22,441 bases of DNA. Source: a virus. Positions 1,845-22,441 of this stretch are shown here, in pieces. Made by a program: the position numbers and the translations under genes. Every line of letters starts with the position of its first letter. Position 1 is the stretch's first letter. The notes under the pieces were generated by a model that saw only the letters and a program-made list of their open reading frames with translations, was not told where the DNA came from and did no database searches. The stretch spans positions 1 through 22,441 of the IMG/VR virus record IMGVR_UViG_3300032896_000014; one strand, 5' to 3'.

Positions 1845-1845
1845 C

Positions 1846-4800
1846 CTATCGACCCTTCAGCGCGCCAGTCGTGCGCAGCGCCCGGTTTGCGGCCGTGCCA
1901 CGGTTGCTCAGTTTGTCGGCGATCATCTGATCGATGATGACGTCCAGCTCGACAGTGCCCTCAGGCCCCTGCCGTTCCTGCGTGCGGACCTGAGCGCCGG
2001 CATTGTTGATCACGTTCAGGGTGACGCGCGCGCCGCCGCCATGCATCGCCACGCCGAGCCCACCGTCCGGCCCTCGACGAAGCGGCATGATTGCTTCCGG
2101 CCCGGCCTCGCCCATGAGGCCGACGCCCTGGGCAAAAGGGAAGATGGTCGGACGGTTGACGATGCCGCCTTGTGCGAACGGGATAAGCCCGCGATCGAAC
2201 ACACCACCCTTCGCAAAGAGTCCCCAACTGCCCGAGATGATGTCCAACGTCGCGGCCGGCGAGATCGCGTTCATGAAGCTGAACGCCCCACCGATTCCGC
2301 CGAAGCTGCCGATAAGGCCCTGAAACCAGTTCGAGCCGCCGCCCATGGGGTTCGCCAGAAACTGCTGCATGCCCTGGCTGAAATTCGACATGCCGGCCGA
2401 CATCTGACTGACTGAGCCCGCGGCACGGGAAGCGCTTACACCGGTTTGACCGAGCCCACTGGCCGCCTGCTTTGCCGTGTTGGTGACGCGATCAACCGAG
2501 CCGCCGAACTTGCCCAGCGCTTCCTCTGCACCGCGCAGGCGGCCAGTGAAGTTATGCGCGGCCTCAGGGTTGTCTTCGCTCCACCCGAGCGGGCGTTCAA
2601 AACCAGCAAATGCCGCCGTGGCCCCGCGAACGTCTCTCGATGCCAGCAGGCGATCGAAAGCCGGGCGTTCAGAGGATTGCAGTTCCTTCCAGGCGAGATT
2701 GAGCTGAGCATTCGTATCGCCCAGCATGTGAGCGCCACCGCCGCGGTTGCTCCAGTGCTGGAACAGTCCGAATGCCTTGCCAGCGTCGCCAACGGCGCTC
2801 GGGTTGAACGCGGACTCGGCGCTGATATTGCCCATGATGCCCGCGATCTGATGCGGGGCAAGGCCCTTGCCGGCGAAGAAATTCCAGACCTGCCCCTCGA
2901 CGCCGCCGGCGCTGGTGAGCCCGGCAGCCACGTTGCTGTTTGCAGGTGAGAAGATGCGTGAGACGTTCGAGCCAGCGCCGCCCAGGAACTCTGTCAGAGT
3001 CGTGTTCGCTTTGAAGCTGGACGCCGCCGACGCCCCGCCGTTGAACAATTGGCCGATCCATCCGCCAACAGACGCGCCGCTGCCTGCTGCCGGCGCAGTG
3101 CCAAAGAATGCGGCGAAGGGACCTTGTCCGAGCAACAGTGCCTGGAGCACGGCATCCGCCAGCGCAGAGACAACACGGCGTAGCGCACGCTCGGCGCCAT
3201 CGGCCCCGGATGCGAGATCGTCGAGCACGCCCATTGCCAGCCCACCGAAGAACTCGGCGCGCTCGTTTACTTCGTCCTGCTGCCGGGCGAGATCGGCAAG
3301 GCGCAGCTTGTATTCGGTGATCTGCTCAGCATTGGCGCGCAGCGCATTGGCTTCCTCACCATGCAGGTCGATACCCATGCGGCGGATATCCTGCTCCACC
3401 TGCATCTGAGAGACGGCACGGGCGCGGGCCGCATCCGTCTGTCCGATCACACTGGCCTCGAGCCTGAGCGCGTCGATCTGTTCGAGCTGTGTCTTCAGCA
3501 TCTCCCGTGCGCGGTCGACGCGCGGGTCTGCCTCCATCTCGATCAATGGGCGCGGCGTCGGCGTCGGTATGCCGATCGATTCACGCTCCAATTGCTCGCG
3601 CTGTCGGCGGTACTCTTCGATTTGCTGTAATGTCTGGAACGGCGTGCTGTAGAAGCCGCCGAGAGGATCTAGCCCTGGCAGGACGGAACGCTGATTGAGA
3701 AGCTGCCCTCCGAGAATACTTGCCCCTTCCTGAAGGAACTGTGCTTCCGTCCGCAATTCGCCGGCACGTTTTGCCGCTGAACCAAGCTGTTGAGCGAGTT
3801 CTTCGAACTGGTCGGCATAGTCCTGGATGACCGGAATGCCGGTCTGCTCCATCAGTTTGTTCAGTTCGCTCTGGACGCGCTGCGCGTCTTCGGCCGTCGC
3901 TGTGCTCGCTGCGATCTTGCTGTCGAGTATGTCGTATGCGTCCTGCAATGGCACGAGCAGGCTTTTGTTGGCTCCCTCGGCCGCGCGGAGCTGTTCGATC
4001 AGTGTTGCAAAGTCGATGGATAGATCGCCGCGGCCGCCTCGCGCATCGTCGTATTGCTCGCGGGCGAGATTGTTGCCGACGGCAAGGCGGTCCTGAATAT
4101 CTTTCTGCCGCTGGAGCTCATCGTTGTAGTCGCGCAGCTTGGGCATAGCATCGCCCCAGCGCGCGGCGACCCGCGCAATGAGTTCTGCTTGCTCCTTTAG
4201 AGCCGTTTCCGATTCGTCGGCCGCCTCACCCCATGAGGCGAAATACTGGATGGCTGCGGCCGCCGCACCGGTCAACCCGACCGCGATGATGCTAACCGGA
4301 CTGACGAGTCCGAGCAGGGCAGCGCCGAGCGCGCGGGCAGCGCCGGCCGCACCGAGAGGTCCCAGTGCTCCGGCAAGCTGTGTGCCCTGCTGGACGGCCG
4401 TCACAAGCGGCGCCTGGCCGGCCATCGCCATCATGCCGATGTCCTGGAGTTGGAACATCGCATTTTGCGCAACGAAACGGTTGTTGTCGTTGGCGATCGA
4501 CGGCGTATCGTTCAGGCGAATTTGCGCCTGCCTGACGCGCTCGATGTCGGCGATCTGCCGGCTGCGCAATGCCTCGATCTGGGCGGTGGCATTGACCTGC
4601 GTGGTGACGCCGAGCATGACCGCCTTGTCGACCAAGGCGAGCGCCCGCGTCATTTCCCGCTCAGCGGCGAGCTGAGCCTTGACGACAGGATCGATCGCTC
4701 CGCGCAGCCGATCATAGGCTCGCGTGACCCGATCAACGCTCGTCGGTATCTCGTCGAATACCTTGCCGGCTGAACGGCGCAGCTCTTCCGCCTTGGCGTG

Positions 4801-4890
4801 CGCGCCGTCCATTGCCCGCTCATACGCGGCCAGGCCAGCCTGAGCGCCACGGGCGTCGACTGTGAGTTCAGTTACCGCTGCTGCTGCCAT
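1846..4890 (-). CDS. Tail tape measure protein with embedded tail lysozyme domain
   Basis: The largest ORF in the window, 1014 residues, in the tape measure position after the tail assembly chaperones. It has an alpha-helical, Glu/Ala/Arg-rich N-terminus (1-130), a hydrophobic Ala/Gly/Leu/Val block around 165-225 (GAALLGLVSPVSIIAVGL), long coiled-coil stretches (about 330-560), and a Gly/Phe-rich C-terminus with FAKGGVFDRGLIPFAQGG and VGLMGEAGPEAIMPL, typical of tape measure C-termini. Residues about 660-795 form a phage tail lysozyme-like domain: VWNFFAGKGL, IAGIMGNISAESAFNP with the probable catalytic Glu, and KAFGLFQHW. The protein sets tail length and its lysozyme part probably opens the cell wall. 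By the usual 0.15 nm per residue rule the tail would be about 150 nm. Confidence 0.93.
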   Translation of the reverse strand: MAAAAVTELTVDARGAQAGLAAYERAMDGAHAKAEELRRSAGKVFDEIPTSVDRVTRAYDRLRGAIDPVVKAQLAAEREMTRALALVDKAVMLGVTTQVNATAQIEALRSRQIADIERVRQAQIRLNDTPSIANDNNRFVAQNAMFQLQDIGMMAMAGQAPLVTAVQQGTQLAGALGPLGAAGAARALGAALLGLVSPVSIIAVGLTGAAAAAIQYFASWGEAADESETALKEQAELIARVAARWGDAMPKLRDYNDELQRQKDIQDRLAVGNNLAREQYDDARGGRGDLSIDFATLIEQLRAAEGANKSLLVPLQDAYDILDSKIAASTATAEDAQRVQSELNKLMEQTGIPVIQDYADQFEELAQQLGSAAKRAGELRTEAQFLQEGASILGGQLLNQRSVLPGLDPLGGFYSTPFQTLQQIEEYRRQREQLERESIGIPTPTPRPLIEMEADPRVDRAREMLKTQLEQIDALRLEASVIGQTDAARARAVSQMQVEQDIRRMGIDLHGEEANALRANAEQITEYKLRLADLARQQDEVNERAEFFGGLAMGVLDDLASGADGAERALRRVVSALADAVLQALLLGQGPFAAFFGTAPAAGSGASVGGWIGQLFNGGASAASSFKANTTLTEFLGGAGSNVSRIFSPANSNVAAGLTSAGGVEGQVWNFFAGKGLAPHQIAGIMGNISAESAFNPSAVGDAGKAFGLFQHWSNRGGGAHMLGDTNAQLNLAWKELQSSERPAFDRLLASRDVRGATAAFAGFERPLGWSEDNPEAAHNFTGRLRGAEEALGKFGGSVDRVTNTAKQAASGLGQTGVSASRAAGSVSQMSAGMSNFSQGMQQFLANPMGGGSNWFQGLIGSFGGIGGAFSFMNAISPAATLDIISGSWGLFAKGGVFDRGLIPFAQGGIVNRPTIFPFAQGVGLMGEAGPEAIMPLRRGPDGGLGVAMHGGGARVTLNVINNAGAQVRTQERQGPEGTVELDVIIDQMIADKLSNRGTAANRALRTTGALKGR

Positions 4891-9796: not shown

Positions 9797-10636
9797 CTAC
9801 TGCTTGAGCCTCGACAGCAGCGGGTAGAGATCGCAGGTGATCTGCGTCCCGTCGCCGTTGGTGAGGATCAGCAATGCTTCGTCGGTGATCGACATATCGA
9901 CGACTGGTTCGCCGTCCTTGCCGCGATCACCCTTCAACTTTTCGCCGCGCGGGCCTGGCCGTCCTGGCTTGCCCTGCGCCGATATCATCTGCCAACCTTC
10001 GCCAGGGCAGGGGCCGGGTTCATCCCTACGGGCAACGAAAGCAGCGCCATTGAGTGCGACGACGTCGAGCGCCTCATAAGCGGGCTGCCCGTTCGCGAAT
10101 GCCTCAGGATCGAACGTGCCACGGATTCGGAACGACCGGCCGGGCTTCCCATCCACACCGCCCCGAGCAATGCAGTTCCAGTCGTCATGAGGTGGCGCGC
10201 GGCCGGTGTCCTTGTTCGCCTGGAACGTTGACCCCTCATGAGTGACGACGTCGCCTTCGTAGTGGACGCGATCCTCCCACGCTTTGACGATCGGCAGCTT
10301 TCCGTCCTTGCCCGGCTCGGGCGGGGGCAATTTGGACACCGCCTCGTCGACCATTGAACGGATGACCTCGGGATCGGCGTCGGCGCCGTCCTTCAACGTC
10401 GCGAGACGCTCAGCCACTTGCCGTTCGAGGTCCGCAACAGCAGCGATGCGGGTGTCCAGCAACGCGAGACGTTCGCGGTGCTCAGTATCGCGGGCGTCCT
10501 TCTCAGCTTGAGCGGTGCGGCGCAGCTCGGCGATCTCTCGCGCGATCGCATCGGTGACCGCATCAGTGAAGGAGCGCAGAGACGCGGGCATCGAGTTCGC
10601 GGGTGTAGTCGTCATAGCTGCGCCCTGCGTCGTCAT
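9797..10636 (-). CDS. CBM5/12-like and collagen-like virion protein
   Basis: A 279-residue protein overlapping the portal gene by 74 bp. I keep the ATG at 10636 because GAGGA lies 7 bases upstream; the internal ATGs at 10615 and 10591 lack one. Residues about 15-95 form a charged coiled coil. Residues about 115-155 (AWEDRVHYEGDVVTHEGSTF, given as VHYEGDVV and FQANKDTG then DDWNCIARGG) look like a carbohydrate-binding module 5/12 repeat. A second copy follows (YEALDVVALNGAAFVA, then PGEGWQMIS). A short collagen-like stretch GKPGRPGPRGEKLKGDRGKDG then leads to a beta C-terminus. The domains suggest a surface-exposed head or neck appendage that binds glycans. Function is inferred. Confidence 0.75.
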   Translation of the reverse strand: MTTQGAAMTTTPANSMPASLRSFTDAVTDAIAREIAELRRTAQAEKDARDTEHRERLALLDTRIAAVADLERQVAERLATLKDGADADPEVIRSMVDEAVSKLPPPEPGKDGKLPIVKAWEDRVHYEGDVVTHEGSTFQANKDTGRAPPHDDWNCIARGGVDGKPGRSFRIRGTFDPEAFANGQPAYEALDVVALNGAAFVARRDEPGPCPGEGWQMISAQGKPGRPGPRGEKLKGDRGKDGEPVVDMSITDEALLILTNGDGTQITCDLYPLLSRLKQ

Positions 10637-11954
10637 CGTTTTCCTCGTCCTGTTCCGCTGGCGCGGGCTTCGCCGCTGCGCCTGCCTTGTCAGACGGTTT
10701 CATGTTCGCGCCGTAGCTGAGCGGAACGACCTGTTCCTGCACGCGCGGCTCTTTGCCGACGCCGCCTGCCGATGCGGGAAGATCTTCCTCGGCGCGGGCT
10801 TCATCCGAACTGTGAATGCCGCTTGTGACGCTGCGCGCCAGCGCTTCGATACGATCCTTGAACGCGCTGCGCTGGAGCGCCTTGGTATCGAACTCGAGAT
10901 ACTCTTCCGGCATGCCCCTGAGTTCGAATAGCTGGCCGAACGCTTCCTCGATGTGGTTCAGCGCGAAGCCGAGTCCGGTTGCGATCCATGACTGCATGAG
11001 CGCTTCGGTTGACGCGAAAGCGCTCTTCTCGCCCATGCCAAGGACCTGCAACGGCATGCGGAAGGCGAGGGCGACATTTTGATCGGTCATCTTCAGCAGT
11101 TCGGCCAACTGCCCGTCGCGTGCGCTTGCCTTGATTTCTTTCGCCTTGAGGCCCCAGGTGAGGATCGGCGTGCCGCCGGCGTTCTCGCCGCGCGTCTGTT
11201 CGTTCCAGTGCTCGCGAAGCTCCTGGGCTTGCTGCTTGTTCAGCTTTTCGTCCGTTTCTAGCATAAAGCTCGGACGCGCTTGATTCAGGTAGAACACCAC
11301 CTGCTGGCTGAGTGCCGCGCCGGACATGGCGAGGTCCAGCGTCGCGGCGAGGATCGGTGAGACACCTTTCAGCGGATGCTGCGGCGTATGAAGGCGGACA
11401 TGCAGCACGTCACGCGCCGGCACGGGCAAGGAGAAATTGAACCGCTGCTCGGCTACTTCGTTGCCGCTCAGGCTGTAGAAGATCGAGCCATCAAGTGCGA
11501 TGCGAGCGCGGCCATTCCGCATCAAATGCAGCTCGACGATCTCTTCTCGGCCGTTGCGCACGGCATAGGCGAACGCCTCGCCCTTATCGTAAAGCCGACG
11601 GGTGAGATTCAGCAAAAGGTCCGACCCGGACTGATAGTCGTTCGGACGCTTGAGAACGCGCGAGAGGGCTGAGTTCAGTCGGGTGCGTCCGCCGTCGGCA
11701 TTCTTCTGCCAGTGCCCAGGAGGGCACATTGCGACCGTCTGCGAATAGGCAGAGATGCACGCCTCGACCATGGCATTCGCCTGACCGTATGGCTGAACCG
11801 AGTAGCCCATCTGCCACCAGTTCAGAAACTTGCCGGCGGCCGCCGACAGGTAGCCGTCGGAAAGCAGATATGGACCCGGACGATATTCGCCTTCCTTCGC
11901 GCTGCGCGTCGACAGCCAGGACGAAGGCATCATCCGGGTGAGAAAGTTCGCCAT
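10563..11954 (-). CDS. HK97-family phage portal protein
   Basis: A 463-residue protein. Recognisable HK97 portal elements are: AMVEACISAYSQTVAMCP (about 61-78) in the first helical part, LLLNLTRRLYDKGEAFAY, the strand-loop ELHLMRNGRARI, VLHVRLHTPQHPLKGVSPI, the helix QQVVFYLNQARPSFML, and the downstream MPLQVLGMGEKSAFASTEA with the LMQSW helix. The C-terminus is acidic and disordered (AEQDEENDDDAGRS). It makes the dodecameric DNA entry channel. It starts 4 bp after the 73-residue gene and its last 74 bp overlap the next gene. It is placed after, not before, the capsid gene. Confidence 0.95.
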   Translation of the reverse strand: MANFLTRMMPSSWLSTRSAKEGEYRPGPYLLSDGYLSAAAGKFLNWWQMGYSVQPYGQANAMVEACISAYSQTVAMCPPGHWQKNADGGRTRLNSALSRVLKRPNDYQSGSDLLLNLTRRLYDKGEAFAYAVRNGREEIVELHLMRNGRARIALDGSIFYSLSGNEVAEQRFNFSLPVPARDVLHVRLHTPQHPLKGVSPILAATLDLAMSGAALSQQVVFYLNQARPSFMLETDEKLNKQQAQELREHWNEQTRGENAGGTPILTWGLKAKEIKASARDGQLAELLKMTDQNVALAFRMPLQVLGMGEKSAFASTEALMQSWIATGLGFALNHIEEAFGQLFELRGMPEEYLEFDTKALQRSAFKDRIEALARSVTSGIHSSDEARAEEDLPASAGGVGKEPRVQEQVVPLSYGANMKPSDKAGAAAKPAPAEQDEENDDDAGRSYDDYTRELDARVSALLH

Positions 11955-12249: not shown

Positions 12250-14181
12250 TTAGGCCGAGTAGGTCCAGTCGGCGCCGTCGATCCACTGGACCATGCCGTC
12301 GCGGCGCATCGCCCAAGTCACGTCGAGCAGCATGCGCAGTGCGATGCTTGCCGTCTGGAACATGGAAATGACCGGGGCAGAGACAGTGTTCGGCGAACCC
12401 GCCGCGCTGATCTGCGCCGGGGACGTATCCTCGGCATGGATCACCGCCTGCTCGCTCGCATCGAACTCCGGCTGATCGCCGGCAGCCGCTGCGAAGTCTG
12501 CCGCGTCGATCATGACGAGGCGTCCTGCCGTGACGTTCACCGATGCGATCGGCGTGATGCCGGCGTCGGTGAGAAGCTGGCGCATCGAGCCGAGCTTATC
12601 GTCCGGACCGGGAACAAAGCTCAGCTTGCGGGCTTCGCGCTTGTTCATGAGCAGGACGAGATTGCGACCCGCCTTTGCCGTATCGAACGGCGAGGCCAGA
12701 GTCTCGATGTCTTCCATGATCGCGGCCCAGCCGCCGGCGGTCGATGCCGTCAGCGCCGAGATGCCATTGAGAAGGCCTGCGGGACGCGTCGCCGAACCGG
12801 CAGTAGTATCGATCAGCAGGGTGTCGATGGTGTCCGCGGTGTCGCCGCGGATTTCCTGACGGAGCAGGTTTTCGATCTGCGGATTCGAATACTTCGCGAT
12901 CTCCTTCGTGAAGTAGGAGATCACGCCCATCTTGTGCGGGCTCAGCGTCTTGCTGGTGAGGCCGAACCGGCGGACCGGGATCGGTGCGCCTTCAGCGACG
13001 AAGGAACCCGAGATCGACGGGGTTGTCGCACGGGACGGCACTTTCAGCGCGCCGCGACCGACACCGAACTGCAGATTGGTGCCCATACCTGCGAGGCGCG
13101 GGAAGAACGAGATGTCGCGCAGCGTTTCGAGGAACGCCACGGTCTCAGTCTCGATCAGTTCCGACGCCCAGCCCTGGACAGACGTCTTTGCCGGATCGAC
13201 GGCAGCGCGGACGAAAACGTTCGTCGCTTCGTGATCGCGGTAACGCTCTTCCAGGATCGCGATCGGATCGCGCTGGGTGACCTGCGCCATGATGGTGCAG
13301 ACACCAGCACGGATCACCAGATCGCCCGGCTCCGGCTCGCGTTCCTTGATGCTGAGCGGGCGGCGGTTGTGCTTCGTGCCGCGCTCGCCACCTTCACCAC
13401 CATTGCCGCCGCCGTTGTTCGGCAGCGTGGTAGCGGCGAGGGCGCGTTCGGCATCCTTCAGCGAGGTGAGGCGAGCCTGGCGCTCTTCCATCTCGGTCTT
13501 GAGGGTGTCGGCCTGTTCCATGTCGAAGTCGTCGACCGCGACGTGGTTCTGATAGGCATCGCGGGCAGTCGTGTAGGCAGTGTTCGCTGCGGCAATGCGC
13601 TGTGCGAGGGTGCTCATGTTCTTTGCTTTCATGTTCGGAGGGTTGGCGGCGTGCTCGCCGGTGCGCACGTGCCGCTCGCCTTGTTCGGCATGCTCGCCGA
13701 AGACGGTGCGGATCGTGGATTCGGAGATGTTCAGGGACCGCGCCATCGACAGCGCGTTCTTGTTGGAAGGGACCGAGACGAGCGACACTTCCAGCAGCTC
13801 GGTCTCTTCGAAGTCGAAACCGCCCTGGGCAGGGTTGCCCATCTTGATCGGGTTGAAGCCTACAGAGACGGCGCGGATGATGCGCTGCTCGATCATGCTG
13901 CGCAGTTCGTCGATGAACGCCGCGGTTCCCTGCGCAGCTAGGACGAGGCGGCCAACAAGCTTGTTGCCCTCGACGCGGACATTCTCCCAGCGTCCGATCG
14001 GCCGCGTGCCCCAGGCCGGATCGCGACCATGCGCCCAAAGCGCCTGAGGGTTGCGGCGGAAGCGGCTCAGCTCCCAGCCTTTCGGGTTGAAGCGCGTCCC
14101 GTGGTTGTCGAGACTGCCATCCGAGATGACAAAGTCCATGCCATCGCCGGCCGAAACCGTCGCTCGGTAGTGCATCGTCAT
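12250..14181 (-). CDS. Fused HK97 prohead protease and major capsid protein
   Basis: One 643-residue frame combines two proteins that are separate in HK97. Residues 1-150 are the S78-type prohead protease: ALWAHGRDP with His51, IIRAVSVGFNP with the nucleophile Ser106, and LLEVSLVSVPSNKNA. A linker (150-190) leads to a helical delta-like scaffold (190-250), a Gly-rich hinge NNGGGNGGEGGERG (255-268), and the HK97-fold capsid (about 300-643) with FVAEGAPIPV, GVISYFTKEI, PAGLLNG, and the C-terminal WAMRRDGMVQWIDG. I looked for an internal start at Met184 or Met189 but no Shine-Dalgarno motif precedes either, so a fused precursor that cuts itself is favoured. A terminator follows the gene. Confidence 0.93.
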   Translation of the reverse strand: MTMHYRATVSAGDGMDFVISDGSLDNHGTRFNPKGWELSRFRRNPQALWAHGRDPAWGTRPIGRWENVRVEGNKLVGRLVLAAQGTAAFIDELRSMIEQRIIRAVSVGFNPIKMGNPAQGGFDFEETELLEVSLVSVPSNKNALSMARSLNISESTIRTVFGEHAEQGERHVRTGEHAANPPNMKAKNMSTLAQRIAAANTAYTTARDAYQNHVAVDDFDMEQADTLKTEMEERQARLTSLKDAERALAATTLPNNGGGNGGEGGERGTKHNRRPLSIKEREPEPGDLVIRAGVCTIMAQVTQRDPIAILEERYRDHEATNVFVRAAVDPAKTSVQGWASELIETETVAFLETLRDISFFPRLAGMGTNLQFGVGRGALKVPSRATTPSISGSFVAEGAPIPVRRFGLTSKTLSPHKMGVISYFTKEIAKYSNPQIENLLRQEIRGDTADTIDTLLIDTTAGSATRPAGLLNGISALTASTAGGWAAIMEDIETLASPFDTAKAGRNLVLLMNKREARKLSFVPGPDDKLGSMRQLLTDAGITPIASVNVTAGRLVMIDAADFAAAAGDQPEFDASEQAVIHAEDTSPAQISAAGSPNTVSAPVISMFQTASIALRMLLDVTWAMRRDGMVQWIDGADWTYSA

Positions 14182-14201: not shown

Positions 14202-15833
14202 TCAGGCGACCATCGCCATGATGTCGAGGGTCGGGGTCCCGTCCTCGAATTTCTTTGCCGTACTCACCGCCATGAGGGCGGCGACGAGGCCGTCGATCCG
14301 AACCGTCGCATTCCGATTCGAGCGTTCCTTGTCGACCTTCAGATTTCCGGCCGGGTCCTTCACCGTCACCGCATTTGCAACGCAGGCGTTCAGCACCGGA
14401 TTGCCGTCGTGTTTCAGTCGCCCCGAGAGTGCCAATTCGACGAATTGCTCGATCGCCGGGGACATATCCTTGAAGCCTTGGCCGTGGGGATCGAGCGGCA
14501 GGTCGACACCCTCGTCGGCCAGGTCGACCTTGAAGTCGTCGATCCGCCAGCGGTCATAGCCGATCGCGCGAACATCGAAGTCGCGGAGAAGATCCCCGAG
14601 CTGCGCGGCGATGTAGCGATATTTGATGACGGGGCCGGGAACGGCAGTGATGAAGCCCTTCGATATCCAGACGCGGAAAAGGTCGCGCTCTTTTTCGCGC
14701 CTCGCTTCCATCTGGCCCTCAGGTGTCCAGAAATACGACAGCAGGTCATAACCTGGTTCCGGCTCGTCATCCGGGAAAGCCAGCACCAGCGCCGACAGGT
14801 CATCCTTGCCCGACAGATCGAGCCCGCCGAAACACCGTCTCCCCTTCAGGTCCGCCACGTCGAGACTTGCCTTGCAAGCTTCCCAGATCGGCCGCGTCAC
14901 GATGCGGGCCTCAGCGTTTCCGTCGATCCGCTGATTAAGCCGCAGGTTCCTGTAGCGCGCTTCGAAAGCTGGGCTGCGTCGCGCGCGCTCGGCTTCCGTG
15001 ACGATGTCGCTGACATCGAGAAAGATATCGGCGGCCGGGTTGCACGCTCTGATCGTTTTCGGATCGAACGGGTCCGCATCGAGCGGGGCCGTTTCGAGCA
15101 CCAGCACTGTCGACGGGTCCGCTTCTGCGTCGTCAATGAGCAGCGACAGCGGATGATCATCGTTCGGCGCCTGCGTCGAGAGGATCATTCCCAGACAGGC
15201 CGTCCGCTTGCCGGCGGACGCGATCAGGTTTTCCAGCAGTTCGCCGTCCCGCGCCTGGGCGAGCTCGTCGTAAACCCAGAACGAGGGTGCACGGCCATGC
15301 GCCTTTCGGGCATCGGCTGACAGAGCCTCGTATGTCGACCCGTCCCCATCGCCAGACAGCACCTCGATTCGCTTGTGGAACCGCACGCAGTTGGTGCGCG
15401 CCGCAAACTCGGGAATGGCAACGATGATCGCTTCCATTTCCCGATAGACCAGCGCCGCCATGTCGCGGTCGATCGAGGCCGAGTAGACCTCGCCACGCGG
15501 TTCCGATTCCGGTCCGAGCAGGTGACAGAGCGCCAGGCCGGCGACGAGCCCGGTTTTTCCATTCCCTTTCGGTTCGGACTTGATCGCAAGACGCTTCCGC
15601 TTTTTGCCGGTCGGTTTGTAGACCCGCCGAATGAAGTCCCGTTGCCCAGGCAGCAGCTTCATCCGCTTGCCCTGCAATTTGCCTTTCGTGATCGGCAGGA
15701 ACTCCAGGAAGGCGATGACGCGCGCGACGCGGTCCAGCCCCGTCTTTTCCCACGGCAACGGCCGCGGCGCTTCGTCGTCCAGCCTCTCGCGCGCCAATTT
15801 TGCTCGCGAAGCGCCGGGACCTCTCAAGCCCAT
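14202..15833 (-). CDS. Phage terminase large subunit
   Basis: A 543-residue packaging ATPase-nuclease. The N-terminus MGLRGPGASRAKLARERL and FLPITKGKLQGK..LLPGQRDF is typical of the Terminase_1 family. The Walker A-like loop is EPKGNGKT (87-94), the Walker B is FWVYDE (185-190, with catalytic Glu190), and LILSTQAPN-type motif III appears as GMILSTQAPN. The RNase H-like nuclease begins GGLDLSGKDDLSAL (Asp339 and nearby Asp344-345) and ends near RIDGLVAALMA. The start is the ATG at 15833; 91 bp separate it from the HNH gene. No small terminase gene is seen on either side. Confidence 0.96.
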   Translation of the reverse strand: MGLRGPGASRAKLARERLDDEAPRPLPWEKTGLDRVARVIAFLEFLPITKGKLQGKRMKLLPGQRDFIRRVYKPTGKKRKRLAIKSEPKGNGKTGLVAGLALCHLLGPESEPRGEVYSASIDRDMAALVYREMEAIIVAIPEFAARTNCVRFHKRIEVLSGDGDGSTYEALSADARKAHGRAPSFWVYDELAQARDGELLENLIASAGKRTACLGMILSTQAPNDDHPLSLLIDDAEADPSTVLVLETAPLDADPFDPKTIRACNPAADIFLDVSDIVTEAERARRSPAFEARYRNLRLNQRIDGNAEARIVTRPIWEACKASLDVADLKGRRCFGGLDLSGKDDLSALVLAFPDDEPEPGYDLLSYFWTPEGQMEARREKERDLFRVWISKGFITAVPGPVIKYRYIAAQLGDLLRDFDVRAIGYDRWRIDDFKVDLADEGVDLPLDPHGQGFKDMSPAIEQFVELALSGRLKHDGNPVLNACVANAVTVKDPAGNLKVDKERSNRNATVRIDGLVAALMAVSTAKKFEDGTPTLDIMAMVA

Positions 15834-15924: not shown

Positions 15925-16197
15925 TCACTCGATCGGCCAGCCATCAAGTCCGATCTCCGGTCTGGGTGCCCTCGTGCCGAATTGCTCGGCTGTCCTGATG
16001 CGGTGATGTCGATCGCAGAGGCAGCGGACATTCTCGTCGACGTCCTCGCCGCCCTGTGCGAGCGGCAGTATGTGATCCGGCACGGTAGCCAACACCAGCA
16101 GCCCGTCCTGCTCTTTGCAGTCTCGACAGAACGGCTCATTGGCTAGACGCCGGGCGCGAAGCTTCACGCCTCGACGGCCTCGGATGCGTTCACCCAT
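15925..16197 (-). CDS. HNH endonuclease of the packaging module
   Basis: A 90-residue protein from the ATG at 16197: MGERIRGRRGVKLRARRL. It has a zinc-binding CRDC (Cys24, Cys27) paired with CDRH (Cys61, His64), and the HNH catalytic core VPDHILPLAQGG (Asp41-His42), Asn56 and His65. The C-terminus RPEIGLDGWPIE is typical of the phage HNH family that lies next to terminase and is needed for cos cleavage in HK97-like phages. A TTG nine codons upstream would extend it, but it would place the start inside the AACGTT repeats and lacks homology-like sequence. It is the first gene after the noncoding control region and probably the first late gene. Confidence 0.9.
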   Translation of the reverse strand: MGERIRGRRGVKLRARRLANEPFCRDCKEQDGLLVLATVPDHILPLAQGGEDVDENVRCLCDRHHRIRTAEQFGTRAPRPEIGLDGWPIE

Positions 16198-16220
16198 GTT
16201 CAGGACCCTGCGCGGACGCC

Positions 16221-16250
16221 GCAAACGTTAGAAAACGTTGGCAAACGTTT
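16221..16250. repeat. Three 10-bp AACGTT repeats upstream of HNH gene
   Basis: GCAAACGTTA, GAAAACGTTG and GCAAACGTTT follow each other with an exact 10-bp period; the palindromic core AACGTT sits at 16224, 16234 and 16244. The array is 27-53 bp upstream of the HNH start and downstream of the terminator, so it would be transcribed in the leader of late mRNA. Sites on one face of the helix suggest binding of a protein in tandem. Confidence 0.7.
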
Positions 16251-16265
16251 CAGGCGGCGCGCTCT

Positions 16266-16301
16266 AAACGAAAAGCCCCGCCGGATTGCTCGGGCAGGGC
16301 T
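16266..16301 (-). terminator. Intrinsic terminator in the late leader
   Basis: On the minus strand AGCCCTGCCC (16301-16292), a loop, and GGCGGGGCT (16282-16274) make an imperfect GC-rich stem followed by TTTTCGTTT. It lies about 20 bases downstream of the expected start of the TTGACA promoter and 70 bases before the HNH ATG, so late transcription must pass it. Confidence 0.72.
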
Positions 16302-16327
16302 CCAGTCGCATTACTGCGAATGGTTTT

Positions 16328-16356
16328 CATCTAGGGTATTCGTGCCATGATGTCAA
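16328..16356 (-). promoter_or_regulatory. Candidate late promoter
   Basis: Minus strand TTGACA (16356-16351) matches the sigma-70 -35 consensus exactly. It is followed after 17 bp by TAGATG (16333-16328), a 3 of 6 match to the -10 box. Transcription would begin near 16321 and meet the terminator at once, the layout of lambda pR' and tR'. No other credible promoter is seen just before the late genes. Confidence 0.55.
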
Positions 16357-16374
16357 CAACTTGCGCGGAGTCAG

Positions 16375-16420
16375 GCGAGCGCTCGCTATAGGTGGTGCTC
16401 TTGGACAGGTGCGGTGTCCA
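16375..16420. promoter_or_regulatory. Two perfect dyads upstream of the late promoter
   Basis: GCGAGCGCTCGC (16375-16386) is a perfect 12-bp palindrome. TGGACA and TGTCCA (16402-16407 and 16415-16420) are perfect 6-base arms around 7 bases, an operator-like dyad about 46 bp upstream of the -35 box. Position suggests binding of an activator or of the late regulator. Confidence 0.5.
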
Positions 16421-16446
16421 TGGACGGTCGCGTGACTGTTCTGGGA

Positions 16447-16468
16447 CAGGGGTTACCCAGGGGTTATC
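16447..16468. repeat. 11-bp tandem repeat CAGGGGTTAYC
   Basis: CAGGGGTTACC (16447-16457) and CAGGGGTTATC (16458-16468) are head to tail with one mismatch. Slightly further right, TGCATTG (16500-16506) and CAATGCA (16541-16547), and GGCTATGCC (16528-16536) and GGCATAGGCC (16550-16559), form overlapping inverted pairs. Confidence 0.6.
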
Positions 16469-16592
16469 CCTAGCACGTGCTCAGCATTTGCTTGGCACCT
16501 GCATTGCAGATGCATCGGCACTGCCACGGCTATGCCGGCGCAATGCATTGGCATAGGCCACCGCCAGTGTTTTCAACAGCTTAGGTGAGGGG

Positions 16593-16714
16593 CTGTTTCG
16601 CTGCCTGTCTCGGTAGCTGTCTCGCCGGACGCAAGCTCGGGGCAGATATCCCCGCCATTTCATGGGCTTCCGCCGAATTGCTCTGTCTCAGGTTCTGTTT
16701 CGGCGGCCGTTTCG
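16593..16714. repeat. Two triplets of CTGTYTCG with 12-bp period
   Basis: CTGTTTCG, CTGTCTCG, CTGTCTCG start at 16593, 16605 and 16617. CTGTCTCA, CTGTTTCG, CCGTTTCG start at 16683, 16695 and 16707. Within each triplet the period is exactly 12 bp and the triplets start 90 bp apart. Between them CGGGG and CCCCG (16638-16654) form a small inverted repeat. Confidence 0.7.
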
Positions 16715-16724
16715 CAGAAGCCGG

Positions 16725-16770
16725 GCTTGAGCATTGCTTGAGCATTGCTAGTTCGGAACTGGTTCCGAAC
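16725..16770. repeat. 11-bp duplication and 20-bp perfect dyad
   Basis: GCTTGAGCATT occurs twice head to tail (16725-16746). Directly after it GTTCGGAAC, TG, GTTCCGAAC (16751-16770) is a perfect dyad with 9-base arms, the form of an operator for a dimeric repressor or activator. Confidence 0.7.
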
Positions 16771-16774
16771 CGGT

Positions 16775-16868
16775 GTCACGCTCTGTCACGCGTGACGCCT
16801 TGTGACGTAACGGTGACGTTACACCGCCGTCACGTGATGTCACGTGAGCGGGGCCGGTTTCACGTGAC
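16775..16868. repeat. Cluster of GTGAC/GTCAC sites
   Basis: GTCAC or GTGAC occurs at 16775, 16785, 16792, 16802, 16813, 16829, 16839 and 16864, many 10-11 bp apart. It contains a perfect 12-bp palindrome GTCACGCGTGAC (16785-16796), GTAACG/CGTTAC arms around GTGA (16807-16822), and a 10-bp tandem GTCACGTGAT, GTCACGTGAG (16829-16848). The density far exceeds chance for 94 bp. Confidence 0.75.
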
Positions 16869-16875
16869 ACCCATC

Positions 16876-16895
16876 GCGCTAGCATGCGCTAGCAT
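16876..16895. repeat. 10-bp duplication GCGCTAGCAT
   Basis: GCGCTAGCAT is perfectly repeated head to tail. Each copy contains the palindrome GCTAGC, and the junction makes GCATGC. Confidence 0.7.
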
Positions 16896-16984
16896 TTGGT
16901 TGCGGTTTGGCTCGGCTAAGGCGTTGTTTTTGTTGCATCCGGGGATCTTTTTCGGCGAGAAAAACTAGCTGAAAAGCCGCCGTT

Positions 16985-17058
16985 TTCCGCGGACTTCCGC
17001 CGACTTCTGCGGATTCGCCCTTGGGGCTCGGCTGCGTTCGGCTCGTCGAGCGTTCGGC
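16985..17058. repeat. 10-bp triplet TTCYGCSGAY and 9-bp repeat GCGTTCGGC
   Basis: TTCCGCGGAC, TTCCGCCGAC and TTCTGCGGAT (16985-17014) follow each other with a 10-bp period. GCGTTCGGC occurs at 17034-17042 and 17050-17058, 16 bp apart, ending just before the stop codon of the DUF6456-like gene. Confidence 0.6.
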
Positions 17059-17060
17059 GA

Positions 17061-17733: not shown

Positions 17734-18027
17734 TCAGGCCGCGTCGCTCGGGCCGCGATCGCGGTAGCCGTGCGCAAGCTCTGCCTGCACCGCATCAGCA
17801 AACGCGCGCAGTTGGGTGTCGGCCTCTGCCTTCGGCAGGCCGATCCGCTCAAAGTGCCTCTCCGCCGCCGATATGACTTGGCGCCAGTAGGCATCGGCGT
17901 CCGCGCCGTTTTTTCGGGCCAGAATTTCGGCTGTCCGCCGAATTTTGCCGACCCGCCGGTTCATCGGGAATGGGACCACCGCACAAGGCGGGGCCCACGC
18001 CTCTGTCGTTTCGAGTTTTCGCTTCAT
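17734..18027 (-). CDS. DUF6074 family protein
   Basis: A 97-residue protein. The motif CAVVPFPMNRRVGKIRRTAEILARKNG, seen here as VVPFPMNRRVGKIRR and DAYWRQVISAAERHFERIGL (as YWRQVI and ERHFERIG), is the DUF6074 signature of short alphaproteobacterial proteins, common in prophages and in Rhizobiales genomes. The rest is an amphipathic helical C-terminus. Function unknown. It overlaps the initiator candidate by 4 bp (ATGA at 18024-18027) and is followed after 22 bp by the DUF6456-like gene, so it belongs to the early operon. Confidence 0.82.
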   Translation of the reverse strand: MKRKLETTEAWAPPCAVVPFPMNRRVGKIRRTAEILARKNGADADAYWRQVISAAERHFERIGLPKAEADTQLRAFADAVQAELAHGYRDRGPSDAA

Positions 18028-18656
18028 GCCGCCTTCCTCTTGTGGCGGGAGGGGTCAGGCTGGCCGGGCCGCTTTTCGCTCCCTCCCTGTGGTATATTAT
18101 ATGTGGGTGACGTGGGCACCCCATTCATGTTGGCTACATCGGCCATTTCGGGTGACGTAGGCATCCCATTCGGGTGCTGTCGTCCCCCCATGTCCTTCTT
18201 GATCGGGTGATGTCGTCCCCTCATTGGGGTGCTGTCGTCACCCCGCGCTGTTGCCGGGGGTTGCCAGCGCATGAACTCTTTCGTCGGACCGGACAACACC
18301 TTGAGCGGATAGTCGACGGCGTGTTCGGTAAGAATGTAGGTGCTGGACCGGCTGCCGCCTTCCTTGCGCCATTTCCAGTCGAAATGCCCGATAGCTGCCC
18401 GCTTGATGAAGCCGCGCTCTATGAGCGTCCGCAGGGCGCGATCAGCAGGCTTGTTGCTGCAATTCAGCGCCGCGCGCATCTCTTCGCCACTAAAGCCGAT
18501 GTTGCCGTTGTTCGAGCCGTTGTAGCGCTGCTTGAACTCGATATAGAGCGCGCGCTCGTACACATCGAGGGAGCGCCAAGCAGCGCTGCGCGTGAACCAT
18601 TCGTACAGCCTGAGGTGACGTGGCTCGCCACCTGTGCGGCTATTCTTTTTCGTCAT
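18024..18656 (-). CDS. Winged-helix replication initiator candidate (lambda O-like role)
   Basis: A 210-residue protein. Residues about 25-115 form a winged-helix-type domain: AWRSLDVYERALYIEFKQRYNG (as SLDVYERALYIEF), NGNIGFSGEEMRAALNCS, ALRTLIERGFIKRA with the recognition helix, and a beta wing with STYILTEHAVDYP. KEFMRWQ follows. The C-terminal 75 residues are Pro/His/Gly-rich, repetitive and probably disordered. The DNA for this part contains five iteron-like repeats and an AT-rich stretch (18093-18248). A DNA-binding head plus an origin inside the gene is the arrangement of lambda O. It overlaps the topoisomerase-like gene by 4 bp upstream and DUF6074 downstream. Initiation function is inferred. 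Confidence 0.72.
   Translation of the reverse strand: MTKKNSRTGGEPRHLRLYEWFTRSAAWRSLDVYERALYIEFKQRYNGSNNGNIGFSGEEMRAALNCSNKPADRALRTLIERGFIKRAAIGHFDWKWRKEGGSRSSTYILTEHAVDYPLKVLSGPTKEFMRWQPPATARGDDSTPMRGRHHPIKKDMGGRQHPNGMPTSPEMADVANMNGVPTSPTYNIPQGGSEKRPGQPDPSRHKRKAA
18093..18248. repeat. Candidate replication origin: five iterons and AT-rich stretch inside the initiator gene
   Basis: Five related units on the plus strand start at 18105 (GGGTGACGTGGGCACCCC), 18150 (GGGTGACGTAGGCATCCC), 18172 (GGGTGCTGTCGTCCCCCC), 18205 (GGGTGATGTCGTCCCCTC) and 18227 (GGGTGCTGTCGTCACCCC). Start spacings are 45, 22, 33 and 22, close to whole helical turns. The last unit is a perfect dyad, GGGGTG N7 CACCCC. The AT stretch TATATTATAT (18093-18102) flanks the first unit. 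The units fall in three reading frames, which argues for selection on DNA. Confidence 0.72.
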
Positions 18657-21055
18657 TCTGCGACTCCGTTTCTATTGGTGAGAACTCTTTCAAGCGCTTC
18701 CTCCCAAGGCAGTGTCTGATCGCTTTCAAATTCCCGCCGAACCTTGTCAGCGAGATCGGCCGGCAACCCCACTCCGGCCGCATAGTCTCGAGCCGCCCTT
18801 TCCAGATCGGCGACCGTCTTTTTCAGGTGGTGACGGCCAATGATCTGCCGTGCGCAACGCTCCAGGCTGTCAGCGTCCGGGACGACCTTTTCAACACCAT
18901 GATCGCGCAGCCCTTGTTCGATCCAGGCGACGAAAACGTCTGAGGGCATGGCATTGAGTTCAACACGCTCGCCCCCGGCAATGAAGTGCAACTCGTCGGG
19001 TGTCGCGCCGTGCTCCCGTAGGCCGTCCAAGATGCGCCGGTGATCGCCTTCGATCTCCTGTCGCTCAGCCTGTAGCTTCATCGCATCGGCCTGGGCGTAG
19101 GTGAGCCCGAGACGCCGGATATCGGGCTCATGAGTGAACCGGTAGCGCGCGCTGTCGCTGCCGAGCGTCCCGAAAATGCGGATGCCGGCCATGTCGAGAT
19201 CGTGAGCGACAAGGATCTTCGCTCCAGCCGCTGAAATGCGGTCTACCATCTTGCGCGCCGCGATAACCGACATGCCCTTGGTCGACATGACGCCGATGTC
19301 GAAACGCTCGGCGATCTGCGCGGCACGGATCAGCGGCTCGAAGCCTTCCTTCTCGATGAACAGGACAGCCCCATAGCGGTCACCGGGTCCGTCGGTGGCG
19401 CTGAGGCCGCTGGTGGTCGAAATGAGCGCCGTATCGACGCGCGGACGGCGCTGGAGGTATTCCCGGACCTGGATAGTGCCCAGGGGCACGCTGCTGCCCG
19501 TGTGAGGCTCTACAAAGTGGCCGCGCGCATCATAGACGACGTCCCAGTCGGCCGTGATGTCTGGGAACTCTTCCATGAAGGCAGGAAGCAGGTTCTGCGT
19601 GAAGTAGGCGTCTTTCAGCTTGCTGGAACCGGTGCGCTGCAGAATGATCGGGCGAGCGGCGTACATGATCTGACGGGCATTTGCAGGAAGGGTTCCGCCG
19701 GCGCTGGCTTTCAGATAGGCATCTTCCATCGCATCGAAGGCAGCAACCTTGATGGACACCGACTTGCTGACAGGCCGGTGCGCCCGCCGAAGGGCTGAGC
19801 CTATGCAGGATGCGAGGGCATGTCGGAAGGGAGCCAGGTCTGGCGTCTTGCCGTCACTGATCAGCGCGATCGCGGGGGTGGTGATCGCTATCTTGACCCC
19901 ATAGGACCCCTTGGCCACGACGCCGATTGACGTCGCTGGCATTCCGCAACCTCGAACGATGGAGCTGCCGCCGATCTGGATATCGATCTCTGCGACGGCA
20001 GGGGTGCGGTTGACGATCAACTGCGGCCAATACTGCGTACCCTTGCCGCTGTGATACTCAGTCGCCCATACCTGCACGATCGCGGGGACCTTGGCTCCAG
20101 CTATCTCAGCTTCGATCTTCTCAGCCTTATAGGCCCCGTCGAACATGTCTTCCGCGATGGCGATCAGTTTCGGCGGCTTCGGCGCCAATGACTTGAGAAG
20201 GTCGAGCGACAGGCTGCGCGCTGCCCCGTCCGGGTCGATGTCACGCTTGGGTGTGCCTGATTGAGCCTGCTCACCACGACCGCGTAGAGCGTGACGCAGG
20301 TCGACGCCGAAAAGGCCAGCGAGGTCCTGGGCGGTGCCCTGAGCGGCTTCCACCATCTCCCTGAACGCGGGCTCAGAATACCAGCTTGGGTGCGTCAGCA
20401 TGGGCGTGGCGGCGTCGCCGGCAAGCTGAATGGCTGTGTCGCCCCAAGCCGTCGAATATTCGTCCCGCGGCAGGGCCGGGCCAAAGCGGATCGTGATCTT
20501 GGTGCCGGCTGTTACTGCGCTCGCCGCTCGCGCGGTGACGATCGTATCTCCCGTGGTGCGGTCGAAGGACAGTTCCTGCCGCGTCCCCATGCTTTCAACG
20601 ATGAGGGAGCCGCCACTCGCGAAGGCAGCGCCAGCTACAACGCGGTTGCCATTTCCGACCATGCCGCGCGTCGGCCGGCGTATCAGCTTCGATGACATCA
20701 TCGGCCGCGTGACTGAGAACATCGTCGCCACCTTCGCGGGATCGATGCCTGGGCCAGTGTCGGTTACAATGAAGGTGTCCTCGTCGAGGGCCGTGAGAGT
20801 TGCCGATGGCCCGGCGTCGAGGGCGTTGTCGACGAGCTCTTTCAGCGCCATACGCCGGAGTTCGCGCTTGGACGCGCCAGCCTTCTGGCTCAGCCGGTCC
20901 GGGTGCAGGAATAGGCTGGCATCCGTCCGAATGAACTCGATCGATGCCGCGACCGATTCCCGAGCGCGCTGGCGGCGCTTCCGCTCACGGGCGAGGTCCC
21001 GCACCGACGAGGCGGGGCTAGAACTTGCGCTAACGGCCCTGGCAGCGTCGCTCAT
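18653..21055 (-). CDS. Topoisomerase VIII-like protein: TopoVI-B-type ATPase fused to TopoVI-A/Spo11-type part
   Basis: An 800-residue protein. The GHKL ATPase has the N-box ELVDNALDAG (Glu73, Asp76, Asn77), G1 DTGPGID (99-105) and the ATP-lid GMVGNGNR (131-138). A transducer-like domain follows (about 210-440), with Lys403 in SDGKTPD a candidate switch lysine. Then comes a winged-helix part with RQIMY (461-465), matching the R-E/D-I-Y-Y motif whose last Tyr (Tyr465) cuts DNA in TopoVI-A/Spo11. The Toprim domain has FIEKEGF (Glu568), STKGM (591-595) and HDLDMAG (Asp619, Asp621). All key residues are present, so it should be an active type IIB-like enzyme. The B-then-A order in one chain is the topoisomerase VIII layout. 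It is coupled to both neighbours by ATGA overlaps. Confidence 0.85.
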   Translation of the reverse strand: MSDAARAVSASSSPASSVRDLARERKRRQRARESVAASIEFIRTDASLFLHPDRLSQKAGASKRELRRMALKELVDNALDAGPSATLTALDEDTFIVTDTGPGIDPAKVATMFSVTRPMMSSKLIRRPTRGMVGNGNRVVAGAAFASGGSLIVESMGTRQELSFDRTTGDTIVTARAASAVTAGTKITIRFGPALPRDEYSTAWGDTAIQLAGDAATPMLTHPSWYSEPAFREMVEAAQGTAQDLAGLFGVDLRHALRGRGEQAQSGTPKRDIDPDGAARSLSLDLLKSLAPKPPKLIAIAEDMFDGAYKAEKIEAEIAGAKVPAIVQVWATEYHSGKGTQYWPQLIVNRTPAVAEIDIQIGGSSIVRGCGMPATSIGVVAKGSYGVKIAITTPAIALISDGKTPDLAPFRHALASCIGSALRRAHRPVSKSVSIKVAAFDAMEDAYLKASAGGTLPANARQIMYAARPIILQRTGSSKLKDAYFTQNLLPAFMEEFPDITADWDVVYDARGHFVEPHTGSSVPLGTIQVREYLQRRPRVDTALISTTSGLSATDGPGDRYGAVLFIEKEGFEPLIRAAQIAERFDIGVMSTKGMSVIAARKMVDRISAAGAKILVAHDLDMAGIRIFGTLGSDSARYRFTHEPDIRRLGLTYAQADAMKLQAERQEIEGDHRRILDGLREHGATPDELHFIAGGERVELNAMPSDVFVAWIEQGLRDHGVEKVVPDADSLERCARQIIGRHHLKKTVADLERAARDYAAGVGLPADLADKVRREFESDQTLPWEEALERVLTNRNGVAE

Positions 21056-21252
21056 GCGTTCAGGGGCTTCCTGATAGCCGAGAGGGCGGCAGCCTCGTCA
21101 ACGACGATGTAGCCGTAGCCTGTCGGGTTTTCTTTCACACCCGGCAGAACGCCGGCTCGGGCATCGCGGATGATCTCGCCGTAATGGCGGCAGTCGCGCT
21201 TATGCAGGTGCCACAAGTTGGCCAGGTTGCGGGGAGGGGCGGCGACAGCCAT
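21052..21252 (-). CDS. Small protein of early operon, possibly DNA-binding
   Basis: A 66-residue protein starting MAVAAPPRNLANLWHLHKRD. It contains IIRDARAGVLPGVKENPTGYGYIVVDEAAA; the Arg-x-Ala-Arg-x-Gly-x-Leu-Pro-Gly-Val pattern with a following beta strand resembles the wing of excisionase/MerR-like small proteins. I cannot name a family. It overlaps its upstream neighbour by 1 bp (TGATG) and the topoisomerase-like gene by 4 bp (ATGA at 21052-21055), so it is strictly co-translated with the large gene. A His and Cys near the N-terminus (HLHKRDCRHYG) might bind metal, but no clear pattern is seen. Confidence 0.62.
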   Translation of the reverse strand: MAVAAPPRNLANLWHLHKRDCRHYGEIIRDARAGVLPGVKENPTGYGYIVVDEAAALSAIRKPLNA

Positions 21253-21761
21253 CAGCGACCCCCGATCCGAAAGGTTGTGAAGTCATAGCGCTCGGCGAAC
21301 GACTTCCGGCGCGCTGGCGCAGCGGGTTCTGTTGGCTCTTCCGGCTCGCGCATGACGAGCGGGGCTGGTTTCACGCGGTCGCGGACAAACTCCCGAACGT
21401 CGGCGCCGTCCTTCCGAAGGCGTGCCAGATCGGCCTTGAACTCGTCGTCGGACCGGCAGTCCTTTTCGTGCGTCTTACGGTTGTTTTCGAACCGGGCGAT
21501 CTTCCACCAGCCCAATGAAGCCGAGCCGCCTTCCACCCACCAATATTCCCAATGGACCCTGACAGCCGTCGGCCTGAAACGGCCCCCGTCTCGGGTGCGG
21601 CGCTTGAAAGCATCGGTGTTGTCGCGGCCTAGAAGGCTCTCGGCCATGCGCTGCTGCTGCGCGTTGTCGAAGACCGGCTTTTGAGCAGGGCGATCGTTCG
21701 CCCACTTCTCTCGCAAATGGCGCTCAAGCGCCTCTGTGTCGATGTCGGCTTCCTCGATCAA
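21252..21761 (-). CDS. Unknown protein of early operon
   Basis: A 169-residue protein with no family I recognise. It is highly charged. The N-terminal half is helical (TEALERHLREKWAND, QQQRMAESLLGRD). The middle has aromatic strands VRVHWEYWWVEGGSASLGWWKIARF (as VHWEYWWVEGG and LGWWKIARF), suggesting a small beta sheet. A Lys/Asp-rich helix follows, then a Pro/Glu-rich linker and a basic C-terminus (KSFAERYDFTTFRIGGR). The start is TTG at 21761, overlapping the stop of the AlpA gene (TTGA); the next ATG, at codon 38, would cut into the helical part. It is part of the same coupled operon. Confidence 0.6.
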   Translation of the reverse strand: MIEEADIDTEALERHLREKWANDRPAQKPVFDNAQQQRMAESLLGRDNTDAFKRRTRDGGRFRPTAVRVHWEYWWVEGGSASLGWWKIARFENNRKTHEKDCRSDDEFKADLARLRKDGADVREFVRDRVKPAPLVMREPEEPTEPAAPARRKSFAERYDFTTFRIGGR

Positions 21762-21979
21762 GCGGCCACACTATCGCGGCCGGAGATACGGTCCTCGATC
21801 CACTTGTCGATCTCATGTTCAACAAATGCAATGCGGCCTTCACTGAGTTTGCAGGGGCGAGGAAAGGTGCCGGCCTTCACGCGGAGATAGATAGTCGCTC
21901 GGGAAAGACTGGTACGCCGACAGGTTTCGCTCTGCGAGATGAGGCGGCTGGGCGCTGCCTGGGGTTCACTCACATTCAT
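21758..21979 (-). CDS. AlpA-family excisionase / regulator
   Basis: A 73-residue protein with a MerR-like winged helix-turn-helix: RLISQSETCRRTSLSRATIYLRVKAGTFPRPCKLSEGRIAFVEHEIDKWI, recognised by SLSRATIYLRV (recognition helix), GTFPRPCKLSEGRIAF (wing) and EIDKWIEDRI. This is the standard AlpA pattern for phage excisionases. It lies just downstream of integrase and would bind att sites to direct excision, and might also control int or the early operon. The ATG at 21979 follows a promoter candidate by about 25 bases. Confidence 0.9.
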   Translation of the reverse strand: MNVSEPQAAPSRLISQSETCRRTSLSRATIYLRVKAGTFPRPCKLSEGRIAFVEHEIDKWIEDRISGRDSVAA

Positions 21980-22082: not shown

Positions 22083-22441
22083 TCACGGTCGCCGTTTTTT
22101 CGAACCTACTGACATTTTTGTGATCTTGCGGTCGATCGCGGCGATCTTCGCATCCCATAGTTTCAGGGCGGCGAGTTTCTCGGCGTCATACTGGTGCCGG
22201 TTGTAGATGCCGGCGACGCCGGAACGGAATCCGCTGATATGGTTCAGCACCACCTCGACGACATGCGGCGCCACACCGAGCGCAGACATGCCTGTTGCAA
22301 CGGTCCGGCGCAGATCGTGCGGCGTCCAGCCTTGGTTCATGTCCTTGAGGTTCTGCAGCTTGAGCCTCACCGCCTGGGCAACGGCGTTGCTTTCGATCGG
22401 TCCTTCACCAGTGCGGGTAAACAGGTGCGCTTGCTGTCCCC
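22083..22441 (-). CDS. Tyrosine recombinase integrase, C-terminal 118 residues (5' end outside window)
   Basis: The frame is open from the window edge at 22441 to the TGA at 22083; the GTG at 22370 is internal, not the start. Readable residues run GQQAHLFTRTGEGPIESN then VAQAVRLKLQ. The catalytic core is visible: TPHDLRRTVAT gives the His-x-x-Arg, EVVLNHISG gives the second His, and GIYNRHQY gives the Tyr nucleophile. The C-terminal tail is basic. It belongs to the P4-type integrases that are common in alphaproteobacterial prophages. It is transcribed in the same direction as the excisionase and all other genes. Any attP site would lie outside the window. Confidence 0.93.
   Translation of the reverse strand, partial: GQQAHLFTRTGEGPIESNAVAQAVRLKLQNLKDMNQGWTPHDLRRTVATGMSALGVAPHVVEVVLNHISGFRSGVAGIYNRHQYDAEKLAALKLWDAKIAAIDRKITKMSVGSKKRRP

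Follow-up and report, generated by a model that had tools for sequence, protein, structure and literature searches.

Topoisomerase VIII (Topo VIII) is found on plasmids and integrated elements, usually as a homodimer with a short C-terminal extension (PMC7614492, PMC8185306, PMC8084294), and is usually encoded as one fused chain in which the B half precedes the A half (PMC8185306). The plasmid-borne enzyme of Paenibacillus polymyxa relaxes supercoils (PMC7614492), several Topo VIIIs both relax and decatenate DNA (PMC8084294), and many appear to be decayed (PMC7614492). These reviews place only the truncated Mini-A in phages and leave the role of Topo VIII open (PMC7614492, PMC8185306, PMC8084294). 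Here we describe a Topo VIII gene in a 22,441-base virus contig (IMG/VR record IMGVR_UViG_3300032896_000014, analysed whole and called the window below), a fragment of a temperate siphophage of rhizobial type. The enzyme is a regular Topo VIII; its tailed temperate phage setting is new relative to the three reviews, and the original survey may already list prophage-borne Topo VIII. From its sequence and position we predict that the protein probably acts in replication.

A single-chain Topo VIII with complete catalytic residues

The gene lies on the minus strand at 18653-21055 and encodes a single chain of 800 aa, B half then A half. Its open reading frame is intact, with an ATG start, 800 codons and zero internal stops. 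A preliminary description of this DNA had given the coordinates and length correctly and left the strand unstated; the strand must be added, because the same interval read as the plus strand contains 12 stops. The ratio of nonsynonymous to synonymous substitution rates (dN/dS) is about 0.10-0.20 between the window gene and its relatives, pairs for which dS is saturated, and 0.22-0.27 among the close relatives themselves (whole range in the clade 0.10-0.27). The open frame and low dN/dS speak for an intact enzyme under purifying selection. At six other loci (L017, L018, L021, L080, L084, and L096), Topo VIII genes are split into several frames, consistent with decaying copies.

From the N terminus, a GHKL ATPase domain is assigned to about residues 41-190 (20486-20935) from Pfam, conservation and its Topo VI-B fold; it carries Glu73, Asn77, Asp99, Gly101, Gly103 and the GNG of residues 134-136. 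A helical part that may correspond to the helix-two-turns-helix (H2TH) domain, together with the transducer, follows at about residues 200-432 (19760-20458) and includes the invariant lysine of the SDGK motif, Lys403. The winged-helix/CAP part (about residues 433-535; 19451-19759) has the catalytic Tyr465 (19661-19663), aligned with the R..YY motif of archaeal Topo VI-A, and the Toprim domain (about residues 560-680; 19016-19378) has Glu568 (19352-19354), Asp619 (19199-19201), and Asp621 (19193-19195). Residues 721-800 (18656-18895), with Trp784, make up a C-terminal extension. The motifs quoted in the preliminary description are correct in both sequence and numbering: ELVDNALDAG (Glu73, Asn77), DTGPGID (Asp99), GMVGNGNR, RQIMY (Tyr465), and the Toprim residues Glu568, Asp619, and Asp621.

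Two Pfam models exceed their curated cut-offs, HATPase_c at residues 68-168 (1e-6) and TOP6A-Spo11_Toprim at residues 564-681 (3.6e-6); the NCBIfam models for the Topo VI subunits stay far under theirs (28.6 bits against 424 for Topo VI-A, 21.4 against 274 for Topo VI-B). In an alignment of 54 single-chain homologues, Glu73, Asn77, Gly101, Gly103, Lys403, Glu568, Asp619, Asp621, and Glu699 are invariant, and Asp99, Arg461, and Tyr465 are at least 90% conserved. In an alignment with ten archaeal Topo VI-A sequences, Tyr465, Glu568, Asp619, and Asp621 each share a column with the corresponding archaeal residue (Tyr, Glu, Asp, and Asp).

A monomer model built with AlphaFold2 from the 54-homologue alignment has a mean predicted local distance difference test score (pLDDT) of 86.2 and a predicted template modelling score (pTM) of 0.54; given this pTM, the relative placement of the two halves is uncertain. 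Model residues 37-432 match Topo VI-B structures (9o0g, 1z5a, 1mx0, and 2q2e; Z about 21-23) and residues 432-720 match Topo VI-A (1d3y; Z 16.7), in agreement with the earlier expectation that residues 440-640 fold as winged helix plus Toprim. The putative H2TH boundary is drawn from helices at 203-290, which lie between ATPase and transducer in the model, in a region spanned by the Topo VI-B alignment. The catalytic tyrosine of a Topo VI-A protomer acts in trans, with the Toprim metal site of its partner. Proximity of Tyr465 to Glu568 and Asp619, proposed earlier as a check, is an invalid criterion for a monomer model, because the Topo VI active site forms between two protomers. A Foldseek search of predicted viral structures returned gyrase-type enzymes and RIIA at low TM, with the ATPase alone matched, and no full-length single-chain A+B protein was among the matches listed.

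Searches of plasmids with tblastn matched seven records, including P. polymyxa pPPM1a, two Pseudomonas megaplasmids, and one plasmid each of Methylobacterium (34 kb), Synechococcus, and Halalkalicoccus; plasmid-borne homologues align over most of the protein at 1e-30 to 4e-33. The tree of A halves splits Topo VIII from Topo VI with support of 100/100; Mini-A is so long-branched there that placement is impossible. In the alignment, Topo VI-A and the Mini-A of phage NP1 stop near window residue 720-730, and Topo VIII runs on to residue 800, sharing Trp784. At the C-terminal motif the window protein reads RVELNAM, where Topo VI-A has EQQA and Mini-A has ELDAL; we take the RVELNAM type to be the discriminating motif published for Topo VIII. 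The Pfam domains, the tblastn homologues, the 54-member alignment and the match of the predicted structure to both Topo VI halves together confirm, at the level of sequence and model, what the preliminary description proposed, namely that the gene product is a single-chain Topo VIII with all catalytic residues present.

The two halves score best with different branches of Topo VIII. The A half is closest to a branch of planctomycete, Synechococcus and two-gene forms (38-50% identity), and the B half to the other branch (29-36% over 400 aa). The same discordance is seen in the halves of L044, L023, L034, and L025, and quick trees looked discordant. A chimeric origin of the halves was rejected: approximately unbiased (AU) tests show no supported conflict (A half, p = 0.066; B half, constrained tree better, p = 0.82), and unequal rates therefore suffice to explain the discordance. 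The branch with A halves most similar to that of the window has many two-gene Topo VIIIs, B then A in overlapping or adjacent genes (L016, L027, L033, L063, L064, L067, L211, and others), while the window lineage is fused. Fusion or fission of Topo VIII has happened more than once.

The phage fragment

From integrase to tail, the genes of the window lie on the minus strand and are given here from right to left. The contig end cuts a tyrosine integrase, leaving its C-terminal part (22083-22441), which is 59-62% identical to the integrases of phages L184 and L185. Next are an AlpA-type excisionase or regulator (21758-21979; PF05930, 1.6e-12), a 169-aa protein with no family match (21252-21761), and a 66-aa protein (21052-21252) whose stop overlaps the Topo VIII start (ATGA). 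Topo VIII is followed by a 210-aa winged-helix-like protein (18024-18656), whose own start overlaps the Topo VIII stop (ATGA) and which weakly resembles DnaD/O-type initiators (phrog_186, 3.6e-3; phrog_270, 0.08), and by a DUF6074 protein (17734-18027; Pfam, 2.5e-25). Stop and start codons overlap at alpA/169, 66/Topo VIII, Topo VIII/210, and 210/DUF6074. The position of Topo VIII near the integrase and AlpA bears out its earlier assignment to the early module of a temperate siphophage.

Between the early module and the terminase lies a 277-aa conserved phage protein (17061-17894), with relatives of 42-55% identity in seven phage contigs, two of which have the large terminase subunit (TerL) about 3 kb downstream. 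An HNH endonuclease (15925-16224) adjoins TerL (14202-15833; TerL_nuclease, 4.6e-35; phrog_9, 1e-109), the presence of which means that the element packages DNA. Beyond are a head protease/capsid fusion (12250-14181; phrog_617, 1e-70), a portal (10563-11954; PF04860, 5e-68), and tail genes; together with TerL, a tape measure and tail genes like those of gene transfer agents (GTAs), these agree with the siphophage setting first proposed.

Several features of the fragment deserve mention in their own right. The fusion at 12250-14181 joins head maturation protease and major capsid protein on one chain of 643 aa (phrog_80, phrog_617). After the portal, a 279-aa protein (9797-10636) has collagen-like or tail-fibre-like GXY stretches, and a similar gene stands at the same place in L016. 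As read from the sequence, the tail genes at 596-4890 are arranged as tape measure, DUF2460-like, DUF2163-like, and NlpC/P60-like genes, the same order as in alphaproteobacterial GTAs. The 836 bp between the HNH and 277-aa genes (16225-17060) contain no convincing minus-strand gene and may hold a cos site, a promoter, or a small gene.

An accessory gene absent from sister phages

Two sister phages, L185 and L187, share the integrase (62%), AlpA (50%), DUF6074, and a relative of the 277-aa protein, followed by the small terminase subunit (TerS) and TerL, and have no Topo VIII. A third, L184, has the same layout, again without Topo VIII, and carries in the variable slot a 371-aa primase-polymerase-like protein, recognised by eye from its N terminus. 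In L216 the winged-helix and DUF6074 genes are neighbours ahead of TerS/TerL, and a relative of the 210-aa winged-helix protein comes after Topo VIII in L067. By gene content and order, the module round Topo VIII is a phage module, in which Topo VIII occupies a variable slot. It had been called a core gene; it is accessory, because it is missing from sister phages that share int, alpA, and the downstream genes. Rarity tells the same way: among 397 genomes sampled from the host order, just 2 have a relative at E <= 1e-20, and one of these is the centre genome of the sample.

Distribution and neighbours of Topo VIII

None of the 50,697 phage records of INPHARED matched any of four different Topo VIII queries, and a scan of viral contigs with a single protein gave zero matches; alignment-based searches were needed to find the Topo VIIIs of viral contigs. 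The nearest relatives (64-72% identity) are in integrative elements of Rhizobium (L010, L024, and L034), Metarhizobium (L023), and Corticibacterium (L044), with an integrase nearby and, in L024 and L034, AlpA. In L010 and L034 Topo VIII is followed by a gene for an O-like replication initiator, and in L044 by one for a RepA/DnaB-like helicase. A P4-type primase adjoins Topo VIII on the Halalkalicoccus plasmid.

Replication genes recur beside Topo VIII in IMG/VR contigs with phage genes. In L016, a DnaB/RepA-like helicase precedes a two-gene Topo VIII, TerS, capsid, and portal; L019 and L020 carry primase, primase-polymerase, Topo VIII, recombinase, neck protein, TerL, and capsid; and in L211 a two-gene Topo VIII is accompanied by the replication genes for an O-like initiator and DnaB, by an S49 head protease and TerS, and by a serine integrase. 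In L215, which is cut, Topo VIII is followed by TerS and TerL.

Among cellular relatives, a portal gene was never found near Topo VIII, a result limited by assembly fragmentation; PF04860 was present in 17 of the 50 genomes and PF05136 in 8 of 50 records. In L023 (14212-15498), L044 (16574-17815), and L211 (7152-8144), Topo VIII has a phage-type S49 head maturation protease (phrog_53, E about 1e-82) at a distance of about 0.2-4 kb. Two of these three elements have no portal gene on the contig, and the protease-bearing elements may be phage satellites or remnants. No clear direct repeats marking attachment sites were seen in the window, L010, L023, L024, or L044, and a 25-bp pair in L034 fails to bracket the module.

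Possible roles in the phage

We consider it probable that the protein is a homodimeric single-chain type IIB topoisomerase that carries out ATP-dependent duplex passage during replication of the excised phage circle. ATP would close the gate of the B part round one duplex; Tyr465 of each chain and the Toprim site of the other would cut the gate duplex; a second duplex would pass, and the break would be resealed. Judging from its position, Topo VIII would be made with the early operon after induction, and would remove positive supercoils ahead of the forks and resolve catenated daughters while the circular phage DNA replicates, acting either alongside host gyrase and Topo IV or as a substitute for them. 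The dimer, the strand passage, the timing and the benefit to the phage are what we infer here. Support for this reading comes from the fold and catalytic residues, the intact frame with its low dN/dS, and the relaxation and decatenation described for other Topo VIIIs, as well as from the operon with its overlapping stop and start codons and from the slot itself, which holds a primase-polymerase-like protein in L184. The link to replication drawn in the preliminary description is further backed by replication-gene neighbours in several independent elements, evidence that is suggestive rather than statistical. Other observations weigh against this role. The Topo VIIIs so far tested are weak, one being active without ATP and one only cleaving (PMC7614492). 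Over all Topo VIII loci, the upstream and downstream neighbour sets are mixed, many of them not replication genes; the resemblance of the downstream 210-aa protein to initiators is weak; and the sister phages manage without Topo VIII.

Instead of passing a duplex, the enzyme might make covalent, regulated double-strand breaks, as Spo11 does, and so initiate recombination, such as recombination-dependent replication or exchange with the DNA of the host. Its A half is the Spo11/Topo VI-A nuclease module, and the Topo VIII of Ammonifex degensii gave only ATP-independent cleavage (PMC7614492). Yet selection has preserved the full ATPase site of the window protein, its transducer with the invariant Lys403, and the whole of its B half, in contrast to the B partners of Spo11, which show reduced ATP use and H2TH loss (PMC11302465), and in the window no gene for a recombinase or exonuclease was seen beside Topo VIII; we regard such a function as unlikely. 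We give equally little credence to a cargo role, in which Topo VIII would be the accessory gene of an integrative-element cassette carried along by the phage, and would act in defence or in competition against other elements instead of in phage replication. The closest relatives in integrative elements without portal genes, the sporadic presence and the Topo VIII-free sister phages would suit cargo. So would the similarity between the Toprim part and JetD, a defence-system protein (E 0.017), but this match is weak and confined to 46 Toprim residues. Translational coupling within the early operon and the recurrence of replication genes alongside Topo VIII also speak against cargo.

It is very improbable that the gene is foreign to the phage, belonging to an integrative element that adjoins an unrelated prophage in the contig. 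The closest relatives are indeed integrative elements, and the end of the contig falls within the integrase, which leaves no attachment site visible. Against this, the flanking genes are ordered as in phages, with int-alpA-...-DUF6074-(277-aa protein)-TerS-TerL in L184, L185, and L187 and winged helix-DUF6074-...-TerS-TerL in L216; in the window, a single strand carries everything from int through the tail, and G+C is even.

Significance

An intact, selected Topo VIII in an early operon, with sister phages that do without it, offers a simple plus/minus genetic system for the role of the enzyme. A phage Topo VIII is also relevant to the proposal that type IIB enzymes, and Spo11 by way of them, spread through viruses and other mobile elements. 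More speculatively, and with low probability, Topo VIII plus an initiator or helicase might be a portable replication cassette, common to tailed phages, phage-satellite-like integrative elements and plasmids, that provides the element with its own duplex-passage enzyme, without reliance on host gyrase or Topo IV, or, in phages, starts replication through Spo11-like breaks.

Comparison with known systems

WP_014600290.1 of pPPM1a, which we assume to be the characterised P. polymyxa enzyme, resembles the window protein in its single chain, domain order, catalytic residues and C-terminal extension, with about 29% identity over the protein; it sits on a 367-kb plasmid, not in a phage, and its A half falls in the other large branch of the tree. 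Archaeal Topo VI (A2B2) shares the fold of both halves and the catalytic residues, but it has two subunits, lacks this kind of C-terminal extension, forms a separate clade, and is described by NCBIfam models whose cut-offs the window protein does not reach. The Mini-A of Pseudomonas phage NP1 is likewise phage-encoded and has the same nuclease module, whereas its 300 aa comprise the A part alone, without B half or C-terminal extension, as compared to 800 aa with a full B half in the window.

The rhizobial integrative elements are closest, with a fused Topo VIII and, in L010, L034, and L044, a following replication gene whose start overlaps the Topo VIII stop; unlike the window, they have no portal gene nearby on the same contig, and two have a lone S49 protease. 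The two-gene Topo VIIIs of phage L016 and of L211 also lie next to phage genes and have A halves 41-45% identical to that of the window, but their B and A parts are separate overlapping or adjacent genes, and their B halves are hardly alike to that of the window protein.

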